64,000 nucleotides of DNA from Butyrivibrio sp. (GTDB lineage: Bacteria; Bacillota; Clostridia; Lachnospirales; Lachnospiraceae). Shown one piece after another: positions 14,702-44,503 of the stretch (its first letter is position 1; the number at the start of each line of letters is the position of its first letter). The translations under genes and the position numbers were made by a program. The DNA is taken from the NCBI RefSeq assembly GCF_017433805.1, contig NZ_JAFRGN010000036.1, positions 124,001-188,000 of the forward strand, in the 5' to 3' direction. The notes beneath the pieces are model-generated. The model did no database searches. It was not told where the DNA came from and was given only the letters and a program-made list of their open reading frames with translations.

Positions 14702-16771
14702 TCAGATTTTCATTGCAATGTCCCAGGCGCCCCATACGGCACTTCTGACATTACCAACCTTCTTACAGTCTCCAAGAAGATGTACATTTTTAGCTGCCTG
14801 AAGAAGAGGTGTTGCATGATATCCAACTGACATGATTACACTGTCTGCTGGAAGTGTAACTGGTCTTCCATCTCCAGTTGTTATCTCTACGCTATCCTCT
14901 TTTATCTCCTTAACAGAAGCCTTGAGATATACAGGAACCTTATTGGTCTTGAAGCAGTCACGAAGATAGCTTGTGTTAGCAAGACACATATTCTTAACTG
15001 CAATAAGATCATCCTTCATCTCAACAATCTGAGGATTTTTACCCTTTCTGAAAAGATCAAGAGCAATCTCACAGCCTGTAAGACCGCCGCCGATAATGAC
15101 AACGTCTTTACCGGCATCCTTCTTGTTCAGAAGGTAATCTGTGGCATCCATAGCATAATCAGCTGCTCCTGGAATTGGAATGCGATTAGCTTCTGCGCCA
15201 GTAGCGATAATATATTCATCTGCCTGAGGAAGAGAATCTGCTCTCACCTCAGTATTCATGTGAATCTCAACACCGAGCTTACGAAGCTGTCTCTTCTGCC
15301 ACTCGATAAGGGCTTTGTCTTTTTCTTTAAACTCAGGGGCTGCAGCTGCGATAAATACGCCGCCAAGCTCACCAGTCTTCTCATAGATAACTGGCTTGTG
15401 TCCGCGAAGAGCAAGGATTCTTGCTGCCTCCATACCACCGATACCACCGCCGATAATTGCAACCTTTTTAGGCTCCTTGGCAGGAACTACGCGGTATTTC
15501 TTGCTCTGCATGCTGCGAGGGTTAACCGCGCACTTACACATTCCTGCTGACTCTGTAAGATCCTGATCATTAGCACTGTTGCCGTGCTTGGTCAGGTTAA
15601 AGCATGCTGTGTGACAGCAGATACATGGACGAATATCCTCTTCTCTGCCTCTTTCAAGCTTAGCCACCCACTTAGGATCAGCAAGGAACTGTCTTCCTAC
15701 AGCCATAGCATCAATATCGCCATTCTTAATGGCCTTAGCGCCCACATCAGGCTCCATCTTACCTGCACATACTACAGGGATATCTACAAACTTCTTAATA
15801 TGAGTTACATCCTCAAGGTTACAGTTCTGAGGCATGTACTGTGGTGGATGAGCCCAGTACCAGGCATCATAGGTACCATTGTCGCAGTTGAGCATATCAT
15901 AGCCCGCATCCTGCAGGTACTTGGCAGCCTTCTCAGACTCCTCCATATCTCGTCCGATCTCATCGAACTTCTCACCAGGCATGGCGCCATATTGGAAAGC
16001 TTTGGTCATGGAACGAACTGAATAACGAAGGGAAACCGGATAGTCCTCTCCGCATTTTTTCTTGATTTCTTTAACTATCTCAACAGCAAAACGGTATCTG
16101 TTCTCAAAAGATCCGCCATATTCATCTGTTCTGTGGTTGGTATAGCCAAGTGTAAACTGATCAAGAAGATATCCCTCATGAACAGCATGAACCTCTATAC
16201 CATCAACTCCAGCCTCTTTGCAGAGTCTTGCTGTTTCACCAAATGCGTACACTATCTGATGAATCTCATCTACTGTTAAAGGCCTTGTCATAATGTCATC
16301 AGCCCATCTGTTAGGAAGAACTGAAGGCGCAGCTGTCAGATATTCAGGATCAATGTAAGGCTTAGCTACTGCTCCGAGAGCCTTATTTCTGATCAACATA
16401 GCAAGTGGATCTGTCAGGGCAAAAGACCTTCCAAATCCGGCAGTTAACTGTACAAACATCTTGGCTCCTGTATCATGAACCTGATCCATAAAGCCAGCAA
16501 GCTGCTTAAACTTACCAGGATTCTGGTATAACCATTTACCGCCCAGCATATCTTTTACCGGAGCAATTCCTGGTATTATAAGACCGCAGTCATGTTTGGC
16601 AATTTTCAGAAGGAGTCTTGCAGCCTCTTTATCAAAGTGGCTTCCCCCAGGCTCCATCCAACCAAATATACAAGTTCCGCCCATAGGAGCAAGGACAATC
16701 CTGTTCTTGATCTCCAGATTTCTGATCTTCCAGGGCGTAAACAGTGCTTCATATTCCTGCTTCAATTCCAT
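14702..16771 (-). CDS. Fe-S/FMN/FAD enoate-reductase-like flavoprotein (2,4-dienoyl-CoA reductase / BaiCD / 2-enoate reductase family)
   Basis: 689 residues, the normal size of this three-cofactor family. Residues 1-370 are an old-yellow-enzyme FMN barrel (RIVLAPMGG, EVHAVHEGYLLDQF, NHRTDEYGGSFENRYRF). A [4Fe-4S] site follows (CICCHTAC at 383-390, then CKC at 412-414). Two dinucleotide-binding folds follow: GGGIGGMEA (441-449) for FAD and GGGLTGCEI for NAD(P). The family reduces activated C=C bonds using NAD(P)H. It is the last gene of the operon with the dehydratase and activase, so it may reduce an enoate made by the dehydratase, as in reductive Stickland-type pathways; the substrate is not determinable here. 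Confidence 0.85.
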   Translation of the reverse strand: MELKQEYEALFTPWKIRNLEIKNRIVLAPMGGTCIFGWMEPGGSHFDKEAARLLLKIAKHDCGLIIPGIAPVKDMLGGKWLYQNPGKFKQLAGFMDQVHDTGAKMFVQLTAGFGRSFALTDPLAMLIRNKALGAVAKPYIDPEYLTAAPSVLPNRWADDIMTRPLTVDEIHQIVYAFGETARLCKEAGVDGIEVHAVHEGYLLDQFTLGYTNHRTDEYGGSFENRYRFAVEIVKEIKKKCGEDYPVSLRYSVRSMTKAFQYGAMPGEKFDEIGRDMEESEKAAKYLQDAGYDMLNCDNGTYDAWYWAHPPQYMPQNCNLEDVTHIKKFVDIPVVCAGKMEPDVGAKAIKNGDIDAMAVGRQFLADPKWVAKLERGREEDIRPCICCHTACFNLTKHGNSANDQDLTESAGMCKCAVNPRSMQSKKYRVVPAKEPKKVAIIGGGIGGMEAARILALRGHKPVIYEKTGELGGVFIAAAAPEFKEKDKALIEWQKRQLRKLGVEIHMNTEVRADSLPQADEYIIATGAEANRIPIPGAADYAMDATDYLLNKKDAGKDVVIIGGGLTGCEIALDLFRKGKNPQIVEMKDDLIAVKNMCLANTSYLRDCFKTNKVPVYLKASVKEIKEDSVEITTGDGRPVTLPADSVIMSVGYHATPLLQAAKNVHLLGDCKKVGNVRSAVWGAWDIAMKI

Positions 16772-16787
16772 TCCCCCTTTATGACAA

Positions 16788-17510
16788 TTATTTTTGCTTT
16801 TTACCCAAATGAAGTTCTTTCATACCTTCCACCTCATCACATACAGGCTTCATGCTGCAATGACCGCAGTCAGTAGGCATTCCGTCCAAAATGTGAGTAA
16901 GTGTCTTGGTGATAGTATCAACCTTCTCAGCATTAGGAAGTAACTTCTGAACCAGCTCTTTATCCGTAATGAAAGCTATGCGGACATTCTTAACCCCTGG
17001 AACCTCTTTATATTTTTTGATATAAAGAGCTCCAACCTTGGCAAAGGTAATACCGTTTGCAAAGGCTCCCTCACTGATCCTGATCTGTTCCTGATTGCTT
17101 CTTGCTGATACTCTTACCATGTAGCCCTTGGGAAAAACATGGTATCTGACAAATTCCAGATTACGAATGGCTGCAAAAGCCTTCTCCTGGTCCTTGTCCT
17201 CTTCCAAATCTTCTGTCTCCAGAACAACCACTCTGGCAAAGGCCACATCGCCTTTAATTTCATTTATATCAGCGCCATAAACAAGTATTTCATCCTTATC
17301 TACAATCCCTGATGTTGTAACCAGCGTGTAGTTAACGGATGGCTGTCCGCCGCTTCCAAGCTCAAGCGCAACATCTCTTTGCATTATGAACTCGCTACTG
17401 CCGTTGTCTTTCCAGGAGCTACCTTCATAAGGGTATATCTTTACCTTGTCATCCCCAAAACTATTAAATGCATTCAGGGTGTCTGATATAATTCCATCGT
17501 ATAATTTCAT
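16788..17510 (-). CDS. Stand-alone protein resembling an internal domain of acetyl-CoA synthase/CODH
   Basis: 240 residues. The stretch at about 141-190 (EQIRISEGAFANGITFAKVG followed by KNVRIAFITD) resembles, from memory, the middle domain of acetyl-CoA synthase, where an RISK-x-AV-x-KG segment is followed by a KV-V-I-T strand. It lacks the rest of that enzyme, including the A-cluster domain. A C-terminal CxxCx5C (C215, C218, C224) could bind a metal or an Fe-S cluster. It sits between the small membrane peptide and the flavoprotein, 16 bp before the latter. The family link is plausible, not proven; no enzymatic function can be assigned. The CooC and CooT genes nearby make a nickel or one-carbon connection less surprising. 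Confidence 0.5.
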   Translation of the reverse strand: MKLYDGIISDTLNAFNSFGDDKVKIYPYEGSSWKDNGSSEFIMQRDVALELGSGGQPSVNYTLVTTSGIVDKDEILVYGADINEIKGDVAFARVVVLETEDLEEDKDQEKAFAAIRNLEFVRYHVFPKGYMVRVSARSNQEQIRISEGAFANGITFAKVGALYIKKYKEVPGVKNVRIAFITDKELVQKLLPNAEKVDTITKTLTHILDGMPTDCGHCSMKPVCDEVEGMKELHLGKKQK

Positions 17511-17544
17511 GCTATCGTAATTCCTTCATGTATCTTGTTTTCTA

Positions 17545-17712
17545 TCAGAATCTGATATCTGATTTCTTTTTGTCAAAGATCTTATTGACCACGGTATATA
17601 ACCATGCCATCAGCTTCTGATCAAGATTCCAGAAATAGATAACAAATAAAACGCCTGTGACTACAGTCAGCACTTTTATTATTTTGAAAAAGATTTTTAG
17701 CGCTTTATCCAT
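17545..17712 (-). CDS. 55-residue single-pass membrane peptide of the dehydratase operon
   Basis: ATG at 17712 lies 18 bp after the activase stop, with GAGAGGAC 6 nt upstream; the frame ends TGA at 17545. It has a lysine-rich start, one hydrophobic helix (about residues 11-28), then a basic tail ending KKKSDIRF. It is a paralogue of the 75-residue protein at 25659-25886: both share the pattern F-x-W-(D/N)-L-D-x-K-(F/L)-M directly after the helix (YFWNLDQKLM here, FYWDLDGKFM there). Each copy lies in an operon with one of the two dehydratase pairs. It is probably a membrane anchor or partner for the soluble Fe-S enzymes; function unknown. Confidence 0.72.
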   Translation of the reverse strand: MDKALKIFFKIIKVLTVVTGVLFVIYFWNLDQKLMAWLYTVVNKIFDKKKSDIRF

Positions 17713-17730
17713 GAATTGTCCTCTCTTTAA

Positions 17731-18525
17731 TTATTTAGCAAGGCCCTTCTGTCTTGCGTACTCAGCTGCACCAAGAGCTCCCATAAGCTGTGGATCGATT
17801 GAAAGCTCAACAACCTTAAGCTTGAGAACCTGCTCAATAGCTGCCTTAAGGCCATCATTCTTGGCACATCCACCTGTAAGTGTGATAGAATCTGTAGCTC
17901 CAGCCTTCTTGGACATTACAAAGCATCTCTTAGCAACAGCCATCTCGATACCTGCTGCGATCTCATCCATAGGCTTGCCCTCTCCTACGAGAGTTATAAC
18001 CTCTGACTCAGCAAATACTGTACACTGAGCTGTGATAGGAATAACGTTCTTAGCCTTAAGTGAGAGCTTGGAGAAGTCCTCAAGACTCATTTCAAAAGAT
18101 CTTGCCATAGCCTCAAAGAATCTACCTGTACCAGCAGCACACTTATCGTTCATGGCAAAGTTTTTAACTGTTCCGTCGCTGTCGATGGCAATACCCTTAA
18201 CGTCCTGTCCACCGATATCGATGATAGCCTTAACGCTAGGATTTGTAACATGTACGCCCATAGCATGGCAGGAAATCTCAGAAATGTTCTCATCAGCAAA
18301 TGGAACCTTGTTACGTCCATATCCAGTACCAATAAGATATGTAAGATCCTTGGCACTGCTAAGATCAGGAACCTGGCTTACTACTTCCTTCATAGCCATT
18401 TCTGCTGATTCCTGAGCAATGATCTTACTCTTAATAGTGGTGTTAGCCACCATCTTGCCATTCTCGTCAATAATAACTGCTTTTGTGTAGGTAGAACCTA
18501 CATCACATCCTCCAAAGTATTTCAT
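17731..18525 (-). CDS. 2-hydroxyacyl-CoA dehydratase activase (ASKHA ATPase, HgdC-like)
   Basis: 264 residues, normal size. The phosphate loop is FGGCDVGSTYTKA (4-16). The hallmark NDKCAAGTGRFFE (C129) and ITAQC (C168) supply the two cysteines per subunit that hold the [4Fe-4S] cluster at the homodimer interface; DIGGQD (103-108) is the second nucleotide motif. The family couples ATP hydrolysis to injection of one low-potential electron into a dehydratase or double-cubane reductase. It is the only activase gene in the window, so it may serve both enzyme pairs. It is separated from the upstream large subunit by a 216-bp gap containing a long nested hairpin. Confidence 0.93.
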   Translation of the reverse strand: MKYFGGCDVGSTYTKAVIIDENGKMVANTTIKSKIIAQESAEMAMKEVVSQVPDLSSAKDLTYLIGTGYGRNKVPFADENISEISCHAMGVHVTNPSVKAIIDIGGQDVKGIAIDSDGTVKNFAMNDKCAAGTGRFFEAMARSFEMSLEDFSKLSLKAKNVIPITAQCTVFAESEVITLVGEGKPMDEIAAGIEMAVAKRCFVMSKKAGATDSITLTGGCAKNDGLKAAIEQVLKLKVVELSIDPQLMGALGAAEYARQKGLAK

Positions 18526-18552
18526 TTATATACTCCCTTCTATTCATATCTC

Positions 18553-18687
18553 ATTGATTATGTTTTTCTGCTCATAGTGCTATTCATTTCGTAAAGCCCA
18601 ATACATTCATCTTATCGTGCAATGGCACTCAAAGATGAATTGGTCTTTACTCCATAGCACTAAAATCGCATCAAATACATAATCAAT
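18553..18687. repeat. Long nested imperfect palindrome in the dehydratase operon
   Basis: Nested arms pair across 135 bp: 18553-18563 with 18677-18687 (11 bp), 18575-18583 with 18654-18662 (9 bp), 18591-18596 with 18645-18650 (6 bp), 18605-18613 with 18632-18640 (9 bp), and GTGC/GCAC at the apex (18617-18620 with 18625-18628). All arms share one axis, so the whole gap folds into one rod. No T-run follows at either end as a terminator would need. It lies in the transcript between the large dehydratase subunit and the activase: a likely mRNA processing or stability element, or a miniature mobile palindrome. Confidence 0.75.
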
Positions 18688-18741
18688 TTCGATATTGTAT
18701 CATTATTATTTTATTATTATATCAGTACGTATTACCCTCTC

Positions 18742-20517
18742 TTACCAGGTGGTGTCATCCTCGAAGTCTTCTAACGACGGGTCTATAGGCTCGGCCTTCA
18801 TAACGGTTCTCATGAACTCGTTGACCTGAGCACGCATATCTTTTCTGGATACTGTTCTTGGATCCATCAGATCGTGGCTTACCCAGAGAAGCTTGATTCC
18901 GCGCTCTCTCGCCTGATCTTCAAATAAGCCCTGAACTGTTGCCATGTTCTTACAGGATACGTGCTGATACATCAGAACAAAATCTACATTCCACAGTTCG
19001 CACTGTCTCCAGAGCTCGGTAACAACATGATCGTAACCACCATTGGTGTGACGTCTCATTACCATTCGCTCATAGAGTCTTGCAAGATCCTTAAGGGCTT
19101 CTTCCTGATTCTCTGTCTCCAGAGGCTTGGTGAAGTTAAGTGACTCCATCTCTACCAGAATATCTACGCCCCAGCAGTTAGCAAACCAGTTGGAGAAGTT
19201 CGCATAGTAGTGAGCTGGGATAGACCATACGATAGCTCTGTATTTCATCTTGCCACGCCATGGCTCATCCTTCATCTCATAGGCCTTCTTCATGAGTTTG
19301 TCTACATTGTAGAAGGTCTTGATGATTCGTGGATCAAGTCCGCCGTCCATCTCGTAGTTCCACTTACGGAACAACTCGTAGCATGGACCGATGAGCTGTG
19401 GATCAGGTGTCTGGTTGATTTCCCACTTCTCAAGCTCGTACTTGGTCTCAATGTTGAACCTCTTCATAGCTGCAAAGTAAGCATCCCAGTTCCACTTAGC
19501 CCCAGTGTTTTCTTCGATAAATTTGATACATCCCTTAATATCTTTGACCGCTGCATCCATAATGGATTCGTCCTCATATCTAACCGGGAAAGCCAGGTGA
19601 TATGTAGGAAGATCTCTGAATCTACGGCTCGTATAGGATGATGCCATTACTGAACCATCGCAAGGCATTGAGCTTGAAATAAAGCAGGCGCCCATGTGAG
19701 GCAGCGCATCAACTACTGCTGCACCACACTCGGATGACGGAACAGGGCATGTATCTGACGGAAGTCCATAGGACTCAACAGCGTCAATATATGGCATGCA
19801 GGCCAGCTGATCAATCTCTGACAAAAGAAATACTGGCATCAGCTGATATGGGATTCCGATAAGGTCTGGGAATCCAGCCATAATCTGCGACATTGTCATC
19901 TCATCAAAAAGAACTATCTTCTTGGAGAGCTCTGTGCAGTTACCAACCTTCTCATCTGATTTCATCAAAAGAACCAGATTCTCGGCAACGTATCTAAAGA
20001 TAGCGTATATAAGTTCATGATGCATCTTGAGGGCTCTTCCGCGAAGTCCCAGGGTGTTCTTGTCCATAAAGGAATGACAACAGAAGTATGAAATCATCCA
20101 TCTGTAATGAACAGCTCCCATCATAGCTGGAACAAGATCCTGTGAGAAGGTTGCAAGAAGCATTCCCCACATCTTGGCCCATTCGTAGAAGTCAACGCCT
20201 GTGTCCTTGACGCCTCGCCACTCACGTCTAACTGTGGCCATCTTGCCGTTGGCATAGAGCTTACCAAGCTGTTTTTCTCCGTTTAATACAAGGTCCTTGA
20301 CCTCATCAGGAGACATATTTTTGAGAAGATCAAGCTCGTGAGTAAGGCGCTTCTTGATACCTTTGGCATCCTTGTGAGCAGCCTTGGCAACGTCGCTCCA
20401 ATCTGTCTCTTTGACTATCTCGCCCACAATACCGGCTATTTCCTTCATGTTCTCAGCCTGGGCTTTCCAGTCGATATGGTCTTTTAATCTGAAGTTCTTG
20501 GGATCAATGTAATGCAT
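18742..20517 (-). CDS. 2-hydroxyacyl-CoA dehydratase-like large subunit (pair A)
   Basis: 591 residues, long compared with the usual 370-480 for HgdA/HgdB-type subunits; the extra length is an N-terminal helical region (about 1-200). Cysteines in family-like contexts include DTCPVPSSEC, SSMPCDGS and MYQHVSCKNMATVQGLFEDQ, the last matching the conserved C-K-x-M segment of its paralogue at 23943. Its start overlaps the stop of the 397-residue partner by one base (TAATG), so the two are made as a pair. It probably holds an Fe-S cluster reduced by the activase. The reaction is not predictable: dehydration and double-cubane-type reduction both use this fold. Confidence 0.8.
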   Translation of the reverse strand: MHYIDPKNFRLKDHIDWKAQAENMKEIAGIVGEIVKETDWSDVAKAAHKDAKGIKKRLTHELDLLKNMSPDEVKDLVLNGEKQLGKLYANGKMATVRREWRGVKDTGVDFYEWAKMWGMLLATFSQDLVPAMMGAVHYRWMISYFCCHSFMDKNTLGLRGRALKMHHELIYAIFRYVAENLVLLMKSDEKVGNCTELSKKIVLFDEMTMSQIMAGFPDLIGIPYQLMPVFLLSEIDQLACMPYIDAVESYGLPSDTCPVPSSECGAAVVDALPHMGACFISSSMPCDGSVMASSYTSRRFRDLPTYHLAFPVRYEDESIMDAAVKDIKGCIKFIEENTGAKWNWDAYFAAMKRFNIETKYELEKWEINQTPDPQLIGPCYELFRKWNYEMDGGLDPRIIKTFYNVDKLMKKAYEMKDEPWRGKMKYRAIVWSIPAHYYANFSNWFANCWGVDILVEMESLNFTKPLETENQEEALKDLARLYERMVMRRHTNGGYDHVVTELWRQCELWNVDFVLMYQHVSCKNMATVQGLFEDQARERGIKLLWVSHDLMDPRTVSRKDMRAQVNEFMRTVMKAEPIDPSLEDFEDDTTW

Positions 20518-21710
20518 TACATTACCTCCCTTCTTCTAATCTTCTTGATCTCCAATGCCTCAACAAAGGCCTGGAATCTGGTACGCAGCTGACCAGAATT
20601 ATGTACGTTATAGGATCTGTCAATCGAAAGGGTTGGCCATCCATATTCCTCAGTAAGAATGTGGCTTGCCAGAGGTCTTTCAAATGCCCAAAAATCGCAA
20701 TACTTCATCTGCTCGTAAATGATACCGTCTGCCTTGAACTCTTTAGCCAGGCGATCCGCTGTATCTTTTCTCTGCTGAACCTTCTCTTCTGCCATGTACC
20801 TTGGGCATTCAGAAGTCAGCATGTAATGTCTTGCAATCTGCCTTACTACATCTTCATCGTCATTGAGCTTGATCTCTTCTCTTCCAGGGAAAGAACCATA
20901 GCAGTATCTGTCAGCAACGACCATAGCTCCTGCTTCCTCAAGAAGTCGCGTAAAGTTAAGGTCATCTACCTCTGAGCCAATAACAACCACCCTTGCCCTG
21001 AATGGATTCTTTTCATCAGGCTTTCTATTCTTGAGTTCTTCTAATGTTTCTTTGAGGAGTGGCAGAATCTTGGCTGTCGGGCAGCAATAGCTTGCAAGAC
21101 AGATAACGTGAAATTCATATCCAGTTATGCGAGGATTCTCTTCCTTGCGGAAGTTACCAATCTCAGTGATAACACGACACATCTCGTTGTGAAGCTCTAC
21201 AGCCTTGCGGATTGCAGCGTCAGAAACATCTGTACCGAGCTTTTCATGCATCACATCAAGGAGCCTAAGTCTCATCTGAGTTGCCACTTGATCGAAGTTG
21301 TACTCTTCAACCTTGTAAGGAACATCAGTGTGAGTCACAAAGAAGTGTGGCTTCTCGTTGCACTTAAGGATCTCAATGTGTTCGTAGCATCTGTTCATGG
21401 CTGAGCAGGCATCAACACCAGCGATTCCATCAAGGAAACGATATCCGCCCTCAATACTGTTCTCCAAAAGAGATCTTGCAAACTCACAGGTGTAGTTGGA
21501 CATATAATAGGTAGATATATCTATCGATCCAACTCTTGGAGCTCGCATTCTCACTGAGAAACAGTTGTCGACATTAAGAAGCACCTCTGGCATGTGGTAG
21601 CAGGTATAGCCAATTGCATACTTGCCTTCATCCTGTGCTTCCTGCACCAGAGGATTGGATGCATCCTCCAGCCATTTCTCAAAGGTGATCATGTGCTTTA
21701 AATCTTGCAT
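20517..21710 (-). CDS. 2-hydroxyacyl-CoA dehydratase-like small subunit (pair A, HgdB/BcrC family)
   Basis: 397 residues, normal for HgdB/BcrC-type subunits. Cysteines occur at GYTCYHMPEVL (near residue 32), NYTCEFARS, VDACSAMNRC, SYCCPTAK, DRYCYGSFPGREEI, SECPRYM and MKYCDFWAFERP. Most are shared with the paralogue at 22735 (GYTCYFMPEVL, GRTCMYGRC, DRHCYGSLPGREEI, SSCPRFM, MKFCEYWSYER), which identifies the likely cluster ligands. The C-terminal Q-M-K-(Y/F)-C motif is typical of the family. It precedes its large subunit with a one-base overlap and follows the CooC-like gene by 20 bp. Confidence 0.85.
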   Translation of the reverse strand: MQDLKHMITFEKWLEDASNPLVQEAQDEGKYAIGYTCYHMPEVLLNVDNCFSVRMRAPRVGSIDISTYYMSNYTCEFARSLLENSIEGGYRFLDGIAGVDACSAMNRCYEHIEILKCNEKPHFFVTHTDVPYKVEEYNFDQVATQMRLRLLDVMHEKLGTDVSDAAIRKAVELHNEMCRVITEIGNFRKEENPRITGYEFHVICLASYCCPTAKILPLLKETLEELKNRKPDEKNPFRARVVVIGSEVDDLNFTRLLEEAGAMVVADRYCYGSFPGREEIKLNDDEDVVRQIARHYMLTSECPRYMAEEKVQQRKDTADRLAKEFKADGIIYEQMKYCDFWAFERPLASHILTEEYGWPTLSIDRSYNVHNSGQLRTRFQAFVEALEIKKIRRREVM

Positions 21711-21730
21711 TTATATCCTCCTTTTATAAG

Positions 21731-22498
21731 TTACTGGTCTATAACATCCATGTTGCGAAGAGCGTTTCGTACGCCTTCAAGAATCAATGAATCTTCAGGT
21801 AACTTGAATACACTGTTTCCCTCTATGTCATTTTCAGTCATCACATCATCAGGTTTTATGACGGCCACCACTGGAACACCGCCGATTGAATCTGAGTCAA
21901 CCTTGTCTGGAAGTGGTGCGCGGTTGATAATAAGGCCGATTTTGTCGTACATTACCAGGTCATCTGCTACATTTTTGATGGTCTCGATGATCTGAAGGCC
22001 CTTACGGCTCTGATCAGACACACAGATAAGATGCGTTACCTTCTCAAGTACACGCCTGTTGATCTGCTCGATGCCGGCCTCACCATCGATTACCACATAA
22101 TCGAAATCATCCACAAGCATCTCGATAACCTTGCGCAAATATGTGTTGATAGCACAATAACAGCCTGCAGCCTCTGGCCTTCCTATAGCCAGAAATGCAA
22201 ACCCGTCCTTCTCTACCATTGTCTCGTATAATTGGAATTTGGCTTCTGCAAGAATATCCTGTGTGTCCCTTAGTTTCCCCGTAACGTCCTCAGCAACCTT
22301 CTTCCTGATCTCGTCCAAAGTAAGCTCTGGTCTGACGCCAAGTGCAACCGATAAACCGACTGCAGGATCTGCATCAATTGCAAGAATCTTAGAATCCGGA
22401 TATACATCCGTTAAAACACGCACAATACAAGCTGAAAGAGATGTCTTGCCTACACCCCCCTTACCCGTTAGTGCAATAATCTTGGTTTTTTCCCCCAT
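21731..22498 (-). CDS. cooC: CooC-type nickel-insertion ATPase (MinD/ParA fold)
   Basis: Start at ATG 22498; upstream in-frame codons to 22573 are not part of the family. 255 residues. A deviant Walker A GKGGVGKTS (12-20), DADPAVGLSVALG (switch) and the CooC hallmark GRPEAAGCYCAIN with a CxC pair (C113, C115), which in CooC1 of Carboxydothermus lies at the dimer interface and binds Ni(II). CooC loads nickel into carbon monoxide dehydrogenase; no CODH catalytic gene is in the window. It is the first gene of the operon with dehydratase pair A, which suggests that a metal-dependent step belongs to this system. It diverges from pair B. Confidence 0.85.
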   Translation of the reverse strand: MGEKTKIIALTGKGGVGKTSLSACIVRVLTDVYPDSKILAIDADPAVGLSVALGVRPELTLDEIRKKVAEDVTGKLRDTQDILAEAKFQLYETMVEKDGFAFLAIGRPEAAGCYCAINTYLRKVIEMLVDDFDYVVIDGEAGIEQINRRVLEKVTHLICVSDQSRKGLQIIETIKNVADDLVMYDKIGLIINRAPLPDKVDSDSIGGVPVVAVIKPDDVMTENDIEGNSVFKLPEDSLILEGVRNALRNMDVIDQ

Positions 22499-22734
22499 TA
22501 AGAAAGCAATCCCCCTACCATCAAATGTACATATAATTATTTTAGAACAATTAATGTTTTTTTCCCATGTCACTTTTGTAGAATTTTATTTAAAATTATA
22601 GTGCAATTTACTAAACGCATTTTCATTCAAGTTTCCGCCACATTATGATAAAATCAAATATATGTAAAAGCACATTTTTTACCAGTGCCTAAATACATGG
22701 GTTTTACAATTTTTATAAGGGGGAAAAACTAAAT

Positions 22735-23946
22735 ATGAAAGATCTCGTGCATATCTTTGAGCTCGAGGACTTGTTACAGGAAGCGAATAACGAACTTATT
22801 CGCAAGGCTAAGGACGATGGCAAAAAAGTTCTCGGCTACACCTGCTACTTTATGCCCGAAGTGCTCTTAGACCTGCCAGGCTGCGTTTCTGCGCGCCTTC
22901 GTGCTCCTCGCAGCACTTCACCAGACATGGCAACTTATTATATGTCAGGCCGCACCTGTATGTATGGCAGGTGTTTATTAGAGCGTGCTCTCGAAGGCGG
23001 TTTCAACTTCCTTGACGCTCAGATGGCTACAGAAACCTGTACCGTCACCTGTAGATTCCAGGAGCATTTACAGCTCATGGATATCATCCAGAATCCAAAC
23101 TTCTTCTGTGAATTCACGGATGTTCCATTCAAGAAAAACGACAACTCAATAGAGCATTATGAGAACCAGCTTAAGGTTCATGTTCTTGACAAGCTTCATG
23201 AGCATTTTGGTATTGATACCAGTGATGAAGCTCTTTTAACTGCGATCAAAGAACACAACGAAGTCTGCAGGCTCATTACAGAGATTGGCAGCTACAGAAA
23301 GCTCGATGAGCCCACAATCACAGGCACAGAGTTTTCTATTATTATGCTCTCCACCTTGGTTTGTCCTAAATATCTTATTATCGATAAGCTTCGCGACATT
23401 GCTGAACAGCTAAAGACTCGTGAGCCCGATGTCAAAAAGACCTACAGATGTAAGGTTGTATTATCCGGCTCCGAAGAGGATGATCCTAATTTCATCAAGC
23501 TCATTGAGGAATGTGGAGCTCTTGTTGTAGCTGACAGACACTGCTACGGCTCTCTCCCAGGCCGCGAAGAGATTGTGGTAAAAGACGGTGAGTCTCCTCT
23601 CCGCGCTATTGCAAGGCACTACCTTGGGACCAGTAGCTGTCCAAGATTCATGGAGCAGCATGTCATGAGACAGAGGAAACAAGAGCTTGCTGACATTGTA
23701 AAAGAATACAAGGCAGATGGAATCATCATTTCCCAGATGAAGTTCTGTGAGTACTGGAGCTATGAGCGCACCATTGATACTATCGTTATGCAAAAGGAAT
23801 ATGGTATCCCTGTCTGCTCCATAGAAAAAGAATACGTCAACAACGCCGTTGGACAGCTTCGAACCAGATTCCAGGCCTTTGTTGAAAGTATCGAACTTAA
23901 AGCTCTTAAGAATAATGACAATTCCAAAAAGGAGGTTACAGCATGA
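22735..23946 (+). CDS. 2-hydroxyacyl-CoA dehydratase-like small subunit (pair B)
   Basis: 403 residues, a clear paralogue of the 397-residue protein at 20517-21710: same opening block (GYTCYFMPEVLL), same (Y/F)YMS-x-x-TC segment, DRHCYGSLPGREEI, SSCPRFMEQ and MKFCEYWSYER. It has extra cysteines (GRTCMYGRC and TETCTVTC). It starts 11 nt after AGGGGG and is the first gene of the + strand operon, which shares a 236-bp divergent promoter region with the cooC-led operon. It overlaps the large subunit by 4 bp (ATGA). It presumably depends on the single activase encoded by the other operon. Confidence 0.85.
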   Translation: MKDLVHIFELEDLLQEANNELIRKAKDDGKKVLGYTCYFMPEVLLDLPGCVSARLRAPRSTSPDMATYYMSGRTCMYGRCLLERALEGGFNFLDAQMATETCTVTCRFQEHLQLMDIIQNPNFFCEFTDVPFKKNDNSIEHYENQLKVHVLDKLHEHFGIDTSDEALLTAIKEHNEVCRLITEIGSYRKLDEPTITGTEFSIIMLSTLVCPKYLIIDKLRDIAEQLKTREPDVKKTYRCKVVLSGSEEDDPNFIKLIEECGALVVADRHCYGSLPGREEIVVKDGESPLRAIARHYLGTSSCPRFMEQHVMRQRKQELADIVKEYKADGIIISQMKFCEYWSYERTIDTIVMQKEYGIPVCSIEKEYVNNAVGQLRTRFQAFVESIELKALKNNDNSKKEVTA

Positions 23947-25631
23947 AGCTTAATGATATAAAAGCCAAATACAGAGAGCTTTTTGTTGTAGAAAAAGCTC
24001 CTGAAGATAAGAATAAACCTAAAGATGTTAAAAAAGCAGTCAAAGATTTCTGGTATGGTAAGCCCCATGAAGAGAGACGCCTTGGCGATCTCTACGTTGG
24101 AGATACTGGTCTTTACAAGCACCGTGAGTGGCGAGGCGTCAAAGACACCATGTACTATTTCAATATGGTATGGCTGTACAACTACGCACACATGGTAACT
24201 GATATCATGAAGTACGGTGATGGTACTCCCAAGAGCGTTGTAGACTTTGCCAAAGGCGTAATGCGCTACCGCTGGATGGGACAGACCTACCTTACTGTTA
24301 TGCACTGGTTTGACAGAGGTATGGAGGGTATGCGCGGAGAAGCCATGAGAGCTTCTGCCTGGCACTACCGTGGAATGGTAAGTGAATCCATTCGCCAATT
24401 CCAGCGTATGTTCGTTTCAGATAAGAAGATTCATGGAGGAAAAGAACCAGAAACCTGGAAAAAGAATATCGCCCACAACGAAACAGTTGGCGGAAGCTTC
24501 TTTTACCCCTTCATGGACGAGTTGGAAGAAGTCCCTCTTGAGATGATTCCATACTTTGTATCTGTTCACGTTAACAGCCACACTGTACTTAACTACATCG
24601 ATGCTGCCCAGTCCATCGGCCTTCCATCAGATCCTTGTCCTATGTGTCAGGCTGAATATGGTCTTTTTGTACTGGATGACTATCCAGACTTTGCTCCTGC
24701 CATGGTAACCTCTAATGAAGCCTGTGATGGCTCGGTTGCTACAAGTGTTCTTCAGGACTGGTTCTTAAACCGCCCTCTTTATGCACTTCCTCAGCCTATG
24801 AGATACGATGACCCTCTGGTTCAGAAGCACTGTCAGAAGGAAATTGAGAACTGCTGGAAGTTCATTGAAGAACAGTATGGTATCAAGTTTGACTGGGATC
24901 AGTATGTTAAGCACGCAGAGGCTTACAATAAGCTGACAGAATTTGAATGGGAAAAATGGGATGTTGCAGCTAACACACCTTACTATCCTATTAGCGGCGT
25001 TGCGCAGGCTCTTTACCGTATCTATTATTCTCAGGTAGGCGACAGGCCAATCTGGCATGAGATGGATGAGCACGTTAAGCGCATCATGAACAAGACAGTC
25101 AAGAATAAGATTGAAACCTTCCCTAAGACAAGACATCGTGCTATTGCCTGGAGCTGTGCTCCTCTCTACTACTCACACTGGTGCACATGGGCTTATAACT
25201 GCTGGGGAATCAACTGTGTAATCAACATGGATTCACTTATGTTTGATCAGTACCTTAGAACCGATACTTACGAGCACGCTCTTGAAGACCTTGCCTGGAT
25301 GAACGAGAAGGCACCTATGAGAGCCATGGCTGTTGGTGGTCATGAACATATCCTCTCACTCTTTGACTACATGGAACGCTTCAACTGTGATATGGTAATC
25401 ATGTACGATCAGCTTCAGTGTAAAGGAATGCAGGGTATCCACGGTGTATTCGAGGATGAATTCAGAAAACGTGACATCCATGCTATCTGGATTCCACACG
25501 CTCTTCCAGAAAAGAGAACTGTTTCAAGAAAAGAAATCCGCCAGATCATCAATGACTATATGACAACAGTCATGCACGAAGAGCCGCTTGATCCTACACT
25601 CGTGGACTTCGACGATGATAAGAGCTGGTAA
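23943..25631 (+). CDS. 2-hydroxyacyl-CoA dehydratase-like large subunit (pair B)
   Basis: 562 residues, paralogue of the 591-residue subunit of pair A. Matching blocks include HREWRGVKDT near the N-terminus, DPCPMCQAEYG, NEACDGSV, MYDQLQCKGMQGIHGVFEDE and the C-terminal KRTVSRKEIRQIINDYMTTVM ending in DFDDDKSW. The cysteines of DPCP, ACDGS and QCKGM are shared with pair A; others are not. Starts with the ATGA overlap to its partner. The duplicated pair, each with its own small membrane protein, suggests two related enzymes with different substrates, or a complex made of both. Confidence 0.8.
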   Translation: MKLNDIKAKYRELFVVEKAPEDKNKPKDVKKAVKDFWYGKPHEERRLGDLYVGDTGLYKHREWRGVKDTMYYFNMVWLYNYAHMVTDIMKYGDGTPKSVVDFAKGVMRYRWMGQTYLTVMHWFDRGMEGMRGEAMRASAWHYRGMVSESIRQFQRMFVSDKKIHGGKEPETWKKNIAHNETVGGSFFYPFMDELEEVPLEMIPYFVSVHVNSHTVLNYIDAAQSIGLPSDPCPMCQAEYGLFVLDDYPDFAPAMVTSNEACDGSVATSVLQDWFLNRPLYALPQPMRYDDPLVQKHCQKEIENCWKFIEEQYGIKFDWDQYVKHAEAYNKLTEFEWEKWDVAANTPYYPISGVAQALYRIYYSQVGDRPIWHEMDEHVKRIMNKTVKNKIETFPKTRHRAIAWSCAPLYYSHWCTWAYNCWGINCVINMDSLMFDQYLRTDTYEHALEDLAWMNEKAPMRAMAVGGHEHILSLFDYMERFNCDMVIMYDQLQCKGMQGIHGVFEDEFRKRDIHAIWIPHALPEKRTVSRKEIRQIINDYMTTVMHEEPLDPTLVDFDDDKSW

Positions 25632-25658
25632 AAGAAATAACAAAACGAGGTAGACAAA

Positions 25659-25886
25659 ATGAAATCTATATGGAAACTTTTGGGAAAATTCCTTGGATTT
25701 ACTGCAGTAGTTTATGGCATTCTCTTTGCAGTATTTTACTGGGATCTTGATGGTAAATTCATGTATTACATCTGGGAGCCAATGATGATAAAGAGATTTG
25801 ACAACATGAAGCGTGCAGATAATACAAGCATTCCTTATCTCCAGAAGGATAAGGTTGCTCCCGATGAATACACACAGATTTTGTAA
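25659..25886 (+). CDS. 75-residue single-pass membrane protein of dehydratase operon B
   Basis: Starts 8 nt after GAGG and lies 27 bp after the large subunit. It has one helix (about residues 9-27), then FYWDLDGKFM and a soluble basic/polar tail of about 40 residues. It is a paralogue of the 55-residue peptide at 17545-17712, with the same motif in the same place after the helix; only the tail is longer. That each enzyme pair carries one copy argues for a conserved structural role, such as tethering the soluble enzyme to the membrane. No known domain recognised. Confidence 0.78.
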   Translation: MKSIWKLLGKFLGFTAVVYGILFAVFYWDLDGKFMYYIWEPMMIKRFDNMKRADNTSIPYLQKDKVAPDEYTQIL

Positions 25887-25901
25887 TAGGAGGCTTATAA
25901 A

Positions 25902-26141
25902 ATGTCAGAGCATGAACACCATCATCACGAACACGGAAGCATAGATTCTCCCGAAAAATTAAAAGCACTGCTCCATCATATGTATCATCACAACGAAGAG
26001 CATACTGAGGAGCTCCATGCTATAGTACATGCACTTGAAGACCAGGGTAGCCCTGATCTTGCCGCCAAGGTTTCACAGGCAATAGACGAATACACAAAAG
26101 GTAATAAACTTCTGGATGAAACGCTAAAAGAGCTGCCATAA
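25902..26141 (+). CDS. His-rich small protein, probable metal (nickel/cobalt) binder
   Basis: 79 residues, 7 nt after AGGAGG. The N-terminus is a histidine cluster (HEHHHHEHG, residues 4-12), with further histidines HHMYHH (28-33), then two amphipathic helices with a Glu-rich face. His-rich tails of this kind bind nickel or cobalt in HypB, UreE and CooJ; the likeness to CooJ is functional, not clear homology. The last gene of operon B, its stop codon lies in the loop of the terminator. Together with the CooC- and CooT-like genes it makes three putative nickel-handling proteins in one locus. Confidence 0.7.
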   Translation: MSEHEHHHHEHGSIDSPEKLKALLHHMYHHNEEHTEELHAIVHALEDQGSPDLAAKVSQAIDEYTKGNKLLDETLKELP

Positions 26142-26157
26142 GGCAGCTCTTTTACAT
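26126..26157. terminator. Bidirectional terminator between convergent operons
   Basis: A perfect 12-bp stem, AAAAGAGCTGCC with GGCAGCTCTTTT, encloses the loop ATAA; the stop codon of the His-rich gene is in the loop. T-runs flank both sides, so it serves operon B on the + strand and the DUF362/cooT transcript on the minus strand. Confidence 0.9.
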
Positions 26158-26165
26158 ATTTTTCT

Positions 26166-27059
26166 TCAAATTTCTATCAATTCGTATTCTTTAACTCCAA
26201 ATCCCATTGCAGCAGCGGCGTCAATTGTATGCTCACCATTTTGCCTCTGAACTCTTTCAAGGAAATGGTCACGTCCCGGGTCTTCTGATTTATAAATCAA
26301 ATCCATGCAAGCTCTGTCTATAGCTATAGGATCAGTAGAAGCCAGAATTCCAACATCAGCCATACAAGGATCCTCTGCTATTGCACAACAGTCACAGTCA
26401 ACAGACAGATTCTTCATTACATTAATGAAGACCATGTTGCCCTTAAAATAATCAACTACTGCAGAAGCTGCCTCTGCCATTGATTCAAGAAATGCATCCT
26501 GAGGTGGAAGATCTCCCCAGACAATTCCCTGCTCCTCTGCCTTGACATATTTTCCTGCAGAATGAATATTGACCTTGCCCGCTGTAGATGCACATCCTAT
26601 TGATAACTGCTTGAGTGCTCCGCCATAGCCTCCCATTGGATGGCCTTTAAAGTGAGACAACACAAGCATCGAGTCATAATTTGCAAGATTCTTACCAACA
26701 ATATCGCTCTTTAGATGATTCGGATGAGCTATAGGAAGCTCCATATCAGGGCCTTCAGCATCCATAAGATCAACTACAAAAAAGTCATTCCAGCCATGTT
26801 TCCTTATCAGTTTGGTATGCTTATCAGTATAGTTTCTCTCACCATCATAAGCAGTGTTGCATTCTACTACTGTTCCGTTTACATATTCAACCATAGTTTT
26901 GAAAAACTCAGGTCTTAGGAAATTCTGATTTCCATCTTCTCCTGAATGAACCTTGACAGCAACTTTTCCCTCAAGCTTCTTGCCAAGTGCCTCATACATC
27001 TTAACAACCTGCTCAGGTGTTATTGTTCTGGAAAAATAAACTTTAGAAACTGATCCCAT
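26166..27059 (-). CDS. DUF362 family protein without ferredoxin domain
   Basis: Start at ATG 27059, 7 nt after AAGGAG; the upstream ATG codons at 27080 and 27074 overlap cooT and lack a site. 297 residues. DUF362 features are VAVKVHSGEDG near the start, the central LSHFKGHPMGGYGGALKQLSIG block and ILASTDPIAIDRACMDLIYK near residue 250. Many DUF362 proteins carry a 2x[4Fe-4S] ferredoxin tail; this one does not. A CDCCAIAEDPC cysteine cluster lies near residue 225. Cotranscribed with cooT. The biochemical role of the family is poorly defined. Confidence 0.85.
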   Translation of the reverse strand: MGSVSKVYFSRTITPEQVVKMYEALGKKLEGKVAVKVHSGEDGNQNFLRPEFFKTMVEYVNGTVVECNTAYDGERNYTDKHTKLIRKHGWNDFFVVDLMDAEGPDMELPIAHPNHLKSDIVGKNLANYDSMLVLSHFKGHPMGGYGGALKQLSIGCASTAGKVNIHSAGKYVKAEEQGIVWGDLPPQDAFLESMAEAASAVVDYFKGNMVFINVMKNLSVDCDCCAIAEDPCMADVGILASTDPIAIDRACMDLIYKSEDPGRDHFLERVQRQNGEHTIDAAAAMGFGVKEYELIEI

Positions 27060-27070
27060 AAACGTCTCCT

Positions 27071-27256
27071 TCATTTGCAATCAATCTTAAGAACCGCTCC
27101 AGTTAAATCTGCAAAGGTAAGATTTCCCCTGATAACTTTTTTCTCCCCCATCAGATCGACTAAAGTAATAGAATCTCCATCAATAGAAAGAGACTGAACA
27201 TACTCCATAAGTATCTCATCCGGATTATCTGCTCTTACAGCTGTCGACAAACACAT
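27071..27256 (-). CDS. cooT: CooT-family nickel-binding protein
   Basis: 61 residues, normal for the family. It begins MCLS, with the cysteine at position 2 that binds Ni(II) in CooT, followed by a small beta-barrel pattern (SLSIDGDSITLVDLMGEKKV with the conserved DLMGE-x-K turn, then GNLTFADLTGAVLKI). A strong GGAGGGGAG precedes it. CooT works with CooC and CooJ in nickel supply to CODH. Here it is transcribed with the DUF362 gene and converges on operon B, which ends with a His-rich protein. It reinforces a nickel theme for the locus, although no nickel enzyme is present in the window. Confidence 0.82.
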   Translation of the reverse strand: MCLSTAVRADNPDEILMEYVQSLSIDGDSITLVDLMGEKKVIRGNLTFADLTGAVLKIDCK

Positions 27257-34194: not shown

Positions 34195-35631
34195 TTATTC
34201 TTTTTCCCACAGGAGGCTAAGGTCTTTCTTTCTCTCTGTTTCCATATCCAGCTTGATACTAGGTTCCCCTATGATTCCCTCTTCTATTCCGGCATATATT
34301 TTGGCCCCCTGACACTTGAGTACTTCTCTTGGGATATTAACAATAGCCTGCGCCTGCTGCCCTGGAAGCATTGTCTTAAGGTCAATATTGAGCCTGTACA
34401 CCATCATGCCCTCAGCTTCTGTACCTTCTGCCGCGCGAACACCCTCTTTTCCTTCAAAAGAAATACCACTGTCCTCTGGAAGGTCCAGATAAAGACAAGG
34501 CACGCAGTCGAAGTAAATAGGACATACACCGTCATTAGTTATGGTAGCTGTAAGCTCCACAGTATCTCGACCAATTGATTTTCTGATATTAAACTCGCTG
34601 ATCCTGTATCTGTAGCCCACATACTTGAGAATGGAATCTGCTGCCTCTAAGAACTCCAGCTTCTCTCTCTTGGTATAAGGAACCATTGGTCCGATAAAGC
34701 TCATATGAGACTTCTGCAAAAGAGCTACTGTCTGGTCATAGTCCTTGTCCAGCATGGTGCTGATTGGAACAGAGCTTGCAAACTCTCCGCCTATAGGAGC
34801 TGTATTCCAAATTTCAGGAACAGCCTTAAGCGCGCCGACTTCACCTGTTTCGTTATAATCGCCACCCTCATCTATCCACTTAAGCCATATACTGGTATCA
34901 TGGCTTATTCCTGTCATATCGTTATATACGCCTGCTCCATCAGGAAGCTCATTAAATGGTCTTCTCATAAGAAGCTTGCAATAATCAAAATTGTCAGTGT
35001 AGTGCTTAACGTATTTGGCTCTTACATCAGCAAGTGGCATCTGAGGAATACCAGCCATGTAATAGGTGTGCCACTCTCCCCAGTGTCCAAGACTTCCAAG
35101 CTCCACATAGGATAAAAGAGAATCCTTTCTGAAGTGATCAGCTATCTCTTTTATCACCTTTTCATGCTCTGCAATGAACACCTTGTTGTTGTAATCAGGG
35201 CAATATCCCTTTCCGTACTGCATATCATAAAACTCGCCATCCCCGGTCTTGTCGTAGAGCCACTGAGGAATGTCCATGTGCTCCTTGGGGCCTGGTTTGT
35301 CACACACAAATCTGATGACCACGTTCTTACCAAAGTCGCGCCATCTGTCCAGATTGTGGAACTTATCATAGAGATCCCAGTTGTACTTGCCTTCTTCTGG
35401 CTCAAGATCTGCCCAGGTAATCTCGCAGTATACAAGGCTTGACTTCTCGCACAGACTGATACTGTTAGTATCGGGAGCATAACCGATATAAGGATTCATA
35501 ACAGTTTCTGTTCCCTCTTTGTACTTGTAGGTAGTTCCAGTCAGATTCCTGATATACATTTGATACCCTCTTATTCCTGCACCTATTACCATTGCCAGGA
35601 TCAGGAAAAAAATAAACCCATTCTTTTTCAT
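34195..35631 (-). CDS. DUF4832 family secreted/anchored protein
   Basis: 478 residues with a single N-terminal hydrophobic segment (about 5-22), so it is exported and membrane-anchored. The middle looks like a glycoside-hydrolase-type TIM barrel (EITWADLEPEEGKYNWDLYD, RFVCDKP, ELGSLGHWGEWHTYY with an E in the strand-4 position), as in DUF4832/DUF4874 proteins. A C-terminal beta-sandwich follows (about 350-478). It is the last gene of the Pel-like operon, 16 bp after DUF4956, so it may act on or bind the exported polysaccharide. Catalysis is unproven. Confidence 0.78.
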   Translation of the reverse strand: MKKNGFIFFLILAMVIGAGIRGYQMYIRNLTGTTYKYKEGTETVMNPYIGYAPDTNSISLCEKSSLVYCEITWADLEPEEGKYNWDLYDKFHNLDRWRDFGKNVVIRFVCDKPGPKEHMDIPQWLYDKTGDGEFYDMQYGKGYCPDYNNKVFIAEHEKVIKEIADHFRKDSLLSYVELGSLGHWGEWHTYYMAGIPQMPLADVRAKYVKHYTDNFDYCKLLMRRPFNELPDGAGVYNDMTGISHDTSIWLKWIDEGGDYNETGEVGALKAVPEIWNTAPIGGEFASSVPISTMLDKDYDQTVALLQKSHMSFIGPMVPYTKREKLEFLEAADSILKYVGYRYRISEFNIRKSIGRDTVELTATITNDGVCPIYFDCVPCLYLDLPEDSGISFEGKEGVRAAEGTEAEGMMVYRLNIDLKTMLPGQQAQAIVNIPREVLKCQGAKIYAGIEEGIIGEPSIKLDMETERKKDLSLLWEKE

Positions 35632-35647
35632 ACTATTCCTTTACTTA

Positions 35648-36319
35648 TTATCCGTTATATTCGCCATTGTACTGAATAAGCGTAATGTCTTTTACCTTAG
35701 GGATGTCCCTTATTCTCTCTTCAAAGACAAGGTTCTGATCCTTACAGAACACCTCAACAGCCATTTCTGTAATATCGCCGCGCATAGTCCTTGACTTGAT
35801 AAAATGCTTATTCTTACCAAAGGCCCTTATGATCTCATCCCCTGTTTCCGTACCTTCATAGTGAATAACGGCGATATACACATTGCCCTTGGATGGCTTC
35901 GAATAAAATATTGCTAACATTATTATAACAATAATTGATGCAATAAGGGTAAGGGCATACATACCAGCACCTGCAGTTATTCCTCCAGTGATAGACCAGA
36001 ACAGGTAAAAGAGATCCAGCGGGTCTTTTACAGCCGTCCTGAATCTTACAATAGAAAGCGCACCTACCATACCAAGAGAAATAACGATATTGGTACTGAT
36101 GGCCAGTGTTACCATACAGGTCAGGACGCACATACCGATAAGGGTAACAGCAAAGCTCTTGGAAAATACGACTCCTGAGTAGAACTTTTTATACACAAGG
36201 AATATCAGTATTCCCAGAACAAGTGCTGTAAAAAGTGATAACGCCATCTTCCATACATCTACCTGAAGGTAAGTGTCTGAATTTAGAACCGAATTCTTAA
36301 TAAAATCTCTTACGCTCAT
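35648..36319 (-). CDS. DUF4956 integral membrane protein
   Basis: 223 residues with four hydrophobic helices (about 25-140) and a cytoplasmic ferredoxin-like C-terminal domain (about 150-223). The signature SLGMVGALSIVRFRTAVKDPLDLFYLFWSI identifies DUF4956. This family is found beside VTC and CotH genes, as here: the three lie consecutively. Function unknown; it may form a membrane component for the VTC/CotH pair. Confidence 0.88.
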   Translation of the reverse strand: MSVRDFIKNSVLNSDTYLQVDVWKMALSLFTALVLGILIFLVYKKFYSGVVFSKSFAVTLIGMCVLTCMVTLAISTNIVISLGMVGALSIVRFRTAVKDPLDLFYLFWSITGGITAGAGMYALTLIASIIVIIMLAIFYSKPSKGNVYIAVIHYEGTETGDEIIRAFGKNKHFIKSRTMRGDITEMAVEVFCKDQNLVFEERIRDIPKVKDITLIQYNGEYNG

Positions 36320-36343
36320 ACTCTTCTCCTATATGTCCCACTA

Positions 36344-40368: not shown

Positions 40369-40371
40369 AAA

Positions 40372-41769: not shown

Positions 41770-41774
41770 GTAAA

Positions 41775-44491: not shown

Positions 44492-44503
44492 CAGGTAATG
44501 CTC

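Follow-up and report, generated by a model that had tools for sequence, protein, structure and literature searches.

A putative double-cubane-type reductase of gut Clostridia encoded with kin of the CODH/ACS nickel-maturation proteins

Why should genes that resemble 2-hydroxyacyl-CoA dehydratases stand beside nickel genes of the carbon monoxide dehydrogenase (CODH) type? The question is raised by positions 14,702 to 27,256 of a 64,000-nucleotide stretch (hereafter, the window) of a Butyrivibrio sp. draft genome (assembly GCF_017433805.1, contig NZ_JAFRGN010000036.1, positions 124,001 to 188,000). Encoded here are a CooC-type ATPase, two dehydratase-like pairs of a small (Sm) and a large (Lg) subunit, an activase, short putative membrane proteins, CdhCd (a protein with a domain of acetyl-CoA synthase, ACS), an old yellow enzyme (OYE)-type flavoenzyme, a histidine-rich (His-rich) protein and CooT (Table 1). 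An initial annotation, made from the letters of the DNA, had listed these genes and proposed an undescribed activase-driven metalloenzyme system. Every gene that it named is present where it had placed it, including those matching PF06050, TIGR00241, PF10133 and PF03598 and the one with the C138/C140 CxC pair.

Our analysis bears out an activase that accompanies a double-cubane-type reductase, independent of CODH and linked to nickel genes; nickel in the enzyme itself is a further, conditional step. We think it fairly probable that the locus encodes an ATP-driven reductase of the benzoyl-CoA reductase/double-cubane family, working at very low potential and provided with its own nickel-maturation kit. 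Full-text searches of open-licence PMC papers, not all of which were aimed at the gene set and one of which listed 20 of its 40 hits, gave no paper that is seen to describe the set by title and start of abstract; as far as such searches reach, the system is undescribed.

A recurrent core and its conserved cysteines

Six genes, for CooC, Sm, Lg, the activase, the 55-residue membrane protein and CdhCd, form a core that recurs in several families. We assembled 96 related loci: 80 of 98 were kept from a scan of named GTDB genomes, many of which are metagenome bins, and 16 are further stretches from core-matching genomes of a 150-genome survey of the family, the window's own included. (Labels with L denote loci and those with G genomes; G000 is the window's genome.) Enough flank is available at 59 loci, 47 are core loci with 8 kb on each side and 43 have long flanks. 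Within 5 kb of Lg and on its strand, the 59 loci contain Sm in 59, the activase in 57, CooC in 56, CdhCd in 55 and the membrane protein in 53. The grouping noticed in the initial annotation is thus more than chance, and a chance clustering of these genes is ruled out by this recurrence together with the placement of CooT described below. Two of the 59 loci (L030 and L034) consist of Sm and Lg alone, and both genomes have the full core elsewhere (G000; G036 as L035), as does G843, the genome of a further orphan pair, L150.

Core hosts belong to the Lachnospiraceae, the Oscillospiraceae and the Anaerovoracaceae, with two genomes of another family in the class; by record titles, many loci come from the rumen or from goat, deer, horse or rabbit guts. 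The distribution is patchy, with the core in 1 of 398 genomes of the phylum (the window's own only) and in 7 of 391 of the class. Locus counts are not independent, because many loci are from Butyrivibrio and four sets of loci have identical Lg1 C-termini (L031 and L065 among them look like one contig).

The nearest solved relatives of Sm by profile are BzdN (E 1e-34), the double-cubane cluster protein DCCP (1e-26) and HadC (3e-23). Six cysteines, C37, C75, C102, C270, C302 and C338, are invariant in all 125 Sm proteins of 370-440 aa, and each has an aligned cysteine in BzdN and in DCCP. In HadC no cysteine is aligned at C37 (one lies three residues off) or at C270. BzdN holds an [8Fe-9S] cluster through six cysteines (PMC11971306), and the alignment makes Sm a putative carrier of such a cluster. 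The dehydratase-like pairs of the initial annotation are, indeed, PF06050 pairs, but not dehydratases in the usual sense, because the six cysteines of Sm align with those of BzdN and DCCP and two have no HadC counterpart; a standard 2-hydroxyacyl-CoA dehydratase is thereby disfavoured. The DCCP model NF040772 (cut-off 350 bits) is not reached either: Sm1 scores 133, Sm2 140, Lg1 24 and Lg2 32 bits.

Lg has three cysteines, C257 and C286 (129/129 proteins each) and C522 (127/127 covered), which we matched to Cys95, Cys128 and Cys380 of BzdO. The alignments of Lg with DCCP, HadB, BzdO and MbdO are weak: that with BzdO is off by one at C286, which lands on C129 while the ligand is C128, and its stretch around C522 scores below zero. 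DCCP and HadB support C286, and MbdO supports C522. In BzdO the three cysteines bind a [4Fe-4S] cluster whose fourth iron, bearing water or hydroxide, adjoins Glu65 and His131 (PMC11971306). At the position of that catalytic histidine, three residues beyond the second cysteine, Lg has a serine, S289, in 129/129 (G288 in the shifted alignment). Further conserved residues are C448 (127/129) and H548 (126/126 covered). Lg is a putative active-site subunit with a three-cysteine cluster. The part that resembles BzdO is preceded by an N-terminal extension of ~160 residues in Lg1 and ~80 in other Lg types, for which neither the PDB at E 1 nor Pfam at E 0.01 gave a known domain.

The sole activase of the locus keeps C129 and C168 in 71/71 proteins; we take these to be its cluster ligands. 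The ACS-domain-like protein of the initial annotation does have a PF03598 domain, but the match is to what we take to be the middle domain of ACS, not to the A-cluster domain (ACS chains by profile, E 1e-7). The tail of CdhCd carries a C-x2-C-x5-C...H motif, with C215, C218, C224, E226 and H234 in 65/65. In a forced global profile alignment these tail cysteines fall on cysteines of the A-cluster domain, a match that is suggestive only, because the local alignment stops before them. The short CdhCd form was found in 12 genomes of the family, all core-bearing; its profile missed two further core genomes found by BLAST (G022 and G081). The Fe-S flavoprotein of the initial annotation stands as a flavoenzyme and is typed here as OYE-type. 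An OYE-domain frame, counted on that domain alone, is present in 25 of the 43 long-flank loci, mostly in Butyrivibrio and kin; in 18 of the 25 it neighbours CdhCd and is read from the same strand. The gene falls below the NCBIfam cut-offs for BaiCD (361.5 against 825 bits) and the bilirubin reductase BilR (361.8 against 750). Such a partner would fit a reduction of unsaturated compounds.

Lg1 and Lg2 are each recovered as a single clade (100/100) in a tree of 42 Lg proteins, where a third group comprises the core Lg of other Lachnospiraceae and four orphan copies. The window's genome has all three kinds. Both pairs that the initial annotation had counted are in the window, but the genome holds three in total, the third lying on another contig with no adjacent activase (L030). 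Since there are three Sm/Lg pairs but only one core-type activase, one close CooC (other matches are 26-29% identical) and one CdhCd, the only PF03598 match, the pairs are probably interchangeable catalytic modules.

Nickel-related genes and CODH

We noted that the core does not depend on CODH. In the family survey, 23 of the 150 genomes match Lg1 at E 1e-5; 14 were called core-bearing (E ≤6e-123) and nine were dropped (E 3e-12 to 5e-6, 21-24% identity). CODH, called by TIGR01702 above its cut-off, is present in 30 of the 150 genomes, namely in 3 of 14 with the core (G026, G056 and G148) and in 27 of 136 others (Fisher p=1.0), which leaves 11 core genomes without it. The absence of a CODH catalytic subunit reported in the initial annotation extends to the draft genome (98% complete), which has no PF03063 or TIGR01702 match, and whose only PF03598 match is a 245-aa frame rather than a complete ACS. 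Since core and CODH occur independently, a remnant of CODH/ACS is unsupported. The initial annotation had reasoned that the association would be chance if most genomes with these genes had CODH and if CooC and CooT were not linked to the dehydratase-like genes. Across the 150 genomes the set occurs mostly in genomes without CODH, and both genes are linked to it, CooC in nearly all core loci and CooT at the core in three CODH-free genomes, so the refutation offered there does not hold.

Indeed, CooT (PF10133) occurs in 20 of the 150 genomes, with one match each. Of these, 17 coincide fully with the set of genomes that have a strong ACS match (>200 bits, open frames of 500-747 aa), and there CooT shares a contig with a CODH match, at ~2.2 kb or less in 16 and ~10 kb in G050. 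The remaining three (G000, G009 and G081) have no CODH match, and CooT stands at the core and nowhere else. Cys2 of CooT, described as its nickel-binding residue in PMC6006190, is kept in 23/23 proteins; the CooT of the window passes the PF10133 cut-off.

We compared the core loci with 8 of the 17 CODH/ACS loci and with six CODH loci that have no ACS. All eight CODH/ACS loci have CooT, a His-rich protein and two CooC types, and none of the six loci without ACS matched CooT, the His-rich protein or CooC. The match of the His-rich protein is not an effect of composition, because its C-terminal domain without the His run still scores 65-76 bits in 8/8 of them. The best PDB match of CooC is CooC itself, and its P-loop lysine and both CxC cysteines (C138/C140 in the listed frame) are kept in 82/82. 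In a tree of 41 CooC proteins, each with one CxC and rooted at the midpoint for drawing only, a branch (99/98) sets off the core CooC; these group with one of the CooC types of CODH/ACS loci, apart from the other (100/100). By sequence, then, CooC, CooT and the His-rich protein are kin of the trio at CODH/ACS loci, and by analogy ATP-dependent nickel insertion is a putative role of CooC here. The order and orientation of the CooT and His-rich genes around the core vary; in L066 they follow CdhCd on the same strand, with gaps of 1 and 17 bases.

HypA was found above its cut-off in 43 of the 150 genomes. With G131, which passes only by summed pieces, left out, 11 of the 14 core genomes have it against 31 of the 136 others (p=5e-5); among genomes with no PF00374 match the figures are 8 of 11 and 19 of 122 (p=1e-4). 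A long GltD-like Fe-S flavoprotein is encoded in 17 of 20 chosen stretches around HypA matches, a HypB-like gene is present in 12 and a gene for a DUF5692-like protein in 7. The flavoprotein-HypA pair lies inside or close to the core cluster in six loci (L033, L040, L043, L121, L149 and L163). In L121, from Candidatus Crickella, 18 kb hold the core, a second pair, CooT, the His-rich protein, HypA, two HypB-like genes, CbiM, CbiQ and a metal-sensitive repressor. HypA is only partly a part of the core, because the GltD-like flavoprotein with which it pairs is encoded in genomes that lack the core as well.

In the window's genome, the GltD-like flavoprotein (960 aa), HypA, a HypB-like GTPase and a DUF5692 protein are encoded in series (G000:C6, L156:4205-9387); this module is found in many genomes of the family, with or without a NiFe hydrogenase match, and could be a second undescribed nickel-linked system. 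A second HypA (G000:C25, L157:5001-7602) is followed by what we take to be a LarC-like frame and a CobW-type GTPase.

A proposed mechanism and its alternatives

From the gene set, its linkage, the conserved cysteines and the kinship of the nickel genes we infer clusters, a path of electrons, nickel, a complex and its membrane anchoring. NAD(P)H-linked flavoproteins and ferredoxin would pass electrons to the activase, which would spend ATP to lift them onto the [8Fe-9S] double cubane of Sm. From Sm they would reach a [4Fe-4S] cluster of Lg, held by three cysteines and with one free iron site, where the substrate would be reduced. Nickel would be delivered by CooC, joined by CooT and the His-rich protein at the loci that have them. 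Its destination would be either that free site, close to C448/H548 if one may guess, or the site formed by the three cysteines of CdhCd; the short membrane protein may anchor the complex. The chain of activase, double cubane and three-cysteine cluster is the one known from class I benzoyl-CoA reductase, so the natural interpretation is a reduction driven by ATP at very low potential; and because the nickel kit accompanies the core, some component would be a nickel protein. Lg is a candidate since its open iron site resembles the kind that CooC serves in CODH, and CdhCd since its ACS kin is a nickel enzyme.

In its fullest form, the proposal is of a new class of nickel enzyme in gut Clostridia: a double-cubane reductase with nickel in its active site or in an ACS-derived subunit, matured through CooC-, CooT- and CooJ-like proteins, which would be a second client of this kit beside CODH/ACS, and with paralogous modules fed by one electron pump. 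We regard this fuller proposal as evenly balanced between right and wrong. ATP-driven double-cubane enzymes catalyse reductions that rank among the hardest in biology, and what DCCP does in the cell is given as unknown (PMC11971306); a branch of the family linked to nickel would, if it exists in rumen and gut bacteria, bring in another metal and another chemistry. A review (PMC6006190) counts 111 CooT homologues and 85 CooT-containing proteomes with CODH, and a nickel-linked core would supply a client to part of the CooT proteins that occur where CODH is absent. CooT beside the core in CODH-free genomes opens the nickel question to direct test.

A number of observations weigh against a nickel-linked reductase. 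CooT is lacking from ten of the 14 core genomes, and in G026 it is found solely at CODH/ACS although the genome bears the core. By genome the association is weak (4 of 14 core genomes against 16 of 136 others, p=0.095), so the evidence from CooT rests in its placement. Near the core, within 8 kb on both sides, CooT is present in 28 of 47 loci and missing in 19, and the His-rich protein, by hidden Markov model (HMM), is present in 25 and missing in 22, so neither is obligatory. The lack of the kit from the six CODH loci without ACS may reflect the clade of CODH, as clades differ in their maturases (PMC13056359). The flavoprotein-HypA module is also found without the core, which makes HypA the weaker evidence. 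The window's genome has another possible nickel user, a PF00374 match, and also a second activase-domain protein, a 1419-aa frame (G000:C6:183591-185303). The core is dispensable, because only one of five other same-genus genomes listed has it. No nickel motif was identified in Lg, and we know of no double-cubane enzyme that uses nickel. An argument for nickel by exclusion was dropped, given the PF00374 match and the second HypA in the window's genome.

These points bear on a nickel-free double-cubane reductase, in which CooC would assemble or insert Fe-S clusters and CooT and the His-rich protein would just buffer metals. The clusters of BzdN and BzdO are iron-sulfur only (PMC11971306), CooC is the sole kit member in nearly all loci (56/59), and the other two are absent from about half of the loci. 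However, wherever CooT occurs in the 150 genomes it lies either with CODH or at the core, and the whole trio is kin to that of CODH/ACS; we hold this alternative to be unlikely, though the strongest of those considered. Less likely still is that the complex activates or repairs another nickel enzyme at the expense of ATP, much as an activase-containing complex of methanogens reportedly activates methyl-coenzyme M reductase. In its favour, the clusters and contexts inspected show no gene for a transporter, a CoA enzyme or a pathway that turns up repeatedly next to the core in different lineages, and the activase matches TIGR03286 (methanogenesis marker 15), at 93 bits under a cut-off of 456. 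Against it, 11 of the 14 core genomes have no CODH above the cut-off and 11 of 14 no PF00374 match, a common nickel client was not found, and three paralogous pairs better fit several substrates. That the proteins are ordinary members of the 2-hydroxyacyl-CoA dehydratases or benzoyl-CoA reductases, beside which unrelated nickel genes came to lie by chance, would agree with their Pfam and activase families. It is very improbable, given the BzdN-like cysteines of Sm, two of them with no aligned HadC cysteine, the missing BzdO His131 in Lg and the recurrence of the linkage across families; in addition, no CoA ligase or CoA-transferase was seen by eye among the listed frames of the window, as the initial annotation had said. 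We thus prefer the ATP-driven reductase with its own nickel-maturation kit.

Layout of the locus and comparison with known systems

The genes of the locus are listed in Table 1. The minus-strand operon runs in the order CooC, Sm1, Lg1, activase, 55-residue protein, CdhCd and OYE-type flavoenzyme, with overlaps or short gaps save for 216 bases between Lg1 and the activase. Sm2, Lg2, the 75-residue protein and the His-rich protein are encoded divergently from CooC; to the right of the His-rich gene lie DUF362 and CooT, of which CooT is transcribed first. Start sites are rough, because the frames were called by a simple script. For CooC the start at 22573 given earlier is probably to be replaced by the ATG at 22498, which fits relatives. 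Lg1 is 96% identical to Lg1 of Butyrivibrio sp. VCB2006.

Table 1. Genes of the locus, with positions in the window
Gene product	Position	Strand	Remarks
OYE-type flavoenzyme, 689 aa	14702..16771	-	PF00724, 194 bits; final operon gene; optional partner
CdhCd, 240 aa	16788..17510	-	PF03598, 35 bits (cut-off 24)
Putative single-pass membrane protein, 55 residues	17545..17712	-	Sequence read by eye
Activase, ASKHA ATPase, 264 aa	17731..18525	-	TIGR00241, 214 bits (cut-off 125.4)
Large subunit Lg1, 591 aa	18742..20517	-	PF06050; N-terminal extension; putative active-site subunit
Small subunit Sm1, 397 aa	20517..21710	-	PF06050; putative [8Fe-9S] double-cubane carrier
CooC-type ATPase	21731..22498	-	CooC 3kje, E 5e-14; open frame reaches 22573
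Small subunit Sm2, 403 aa, second pair	22735..23946	+	PF06050; same six Cys
Large subunit Lg2, 562 aa, second pair	23943..25631	+	PF06050; own clade (100/100)
75-residue protein, homologue of the 55-residue one	25659..25886	+	Same BLAST cluster; 26/43 long-flank loci
His-rich protein, 79 aa, conserved C-terminal domain	25902..26141	+	HMM
DUF362 gene	26166..27080	-	Overlaps CooT by 10 bases
CooT, 61 aa	27071..27256	-	PF10133, 49.3 bits (cut-off 27)

The DUF362 region, which the initial annotation had drawn inside the locus, is not conserved with the system: DUF362 is present in none of the 43 long-flank loci, and the rhamnose genes to its right in two. A DUF362 gene is also found near the orphan pair L150. 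At gathering thresholds the window has no Rfam match, and hence no sign of a nickel riboswitch. In seven relatives scanned, we saw an unrelated Clostridiales-1 RNA (RF01699, 113 bits) just 3' of Lg2 at L031:15793-15956. The 1419-aa frame mentioned above has two activase domains, one above and one below the TIGR00241 cut-off. In L097 and L121 the second pair and the core are separated by a gene that by eye resembles HtpG (Hsp90); its cluster occurs in six loci. Two of 40 genomes of one other family, possibly that of Acetobacterium, have the core (L147 and L148), near a regulator, an aldehyde:ferredoxin oxidoreductase-like gene and a MoaD-like protein. In L148 the regulator is of the sigma-54 type, and an NlpA lipoprotein with ABC genes and oxoacid-oxidoreductase-like frames are also present. 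Elsewhere in the window, positions 34195-46618 resemble, by eye, a Gram-positive pel-type exopolysaccharide operon, with PelG- and PelF-like proteins and VTC-domain, CotH-like and DUF4956-like frames.

Among known systems, class I benzoyl-CoA reductase (BzdNO, MbdON) is alike in that BzdN is the nearest PDB relative of Sm and shares its six cysteines, and Lg has the three cluster cysteines of BzdO, by weak alignments. It differs in having two activase genes (BzdP and BzdQ) against one in this operon, whereas here Lg1 has ~160 extra N-terminal residues and no histidine at the His131 position, and the nickel kit and CdhCd are attached. DCCP has the six aligned cysteines and presumably also an activase partner; unlike it, the present system has a heteromeric pair with a three-cysteine large subunit and scores far below the 350 bits of NF040772. 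The 2-hydroxyacyl-CoA dehydratases (HadBC, HgdAB) share the PF06050 family and an HgdC-type activase, but HadC has no aligned cysteine at C37 and C270, and no CoA enzymes were seen near the core. AcsB/CdhC shares the middle domain with CdhCd and, by the forced global alignment, three cysteines placed on those of the A-cluster domain; CdhCd, however, is of 240 aa and has neither the first domain nor the rest of the A-cluster domain. The His-rich protein, likened to CooJ by description, has its His run at the N-terminus, while that of R. rubrum CooJ is C-terminal (PMC6006190). The closest parallel for the nickel genes is the CODH/ACS kit (CooC, CooT and CooJ) of the same family, whose CooC, CooT and His-rich protein are homologous to those found here, and from which the present locus differs in its neighbours, a dehydratase-like core in place of CODH/ACS.

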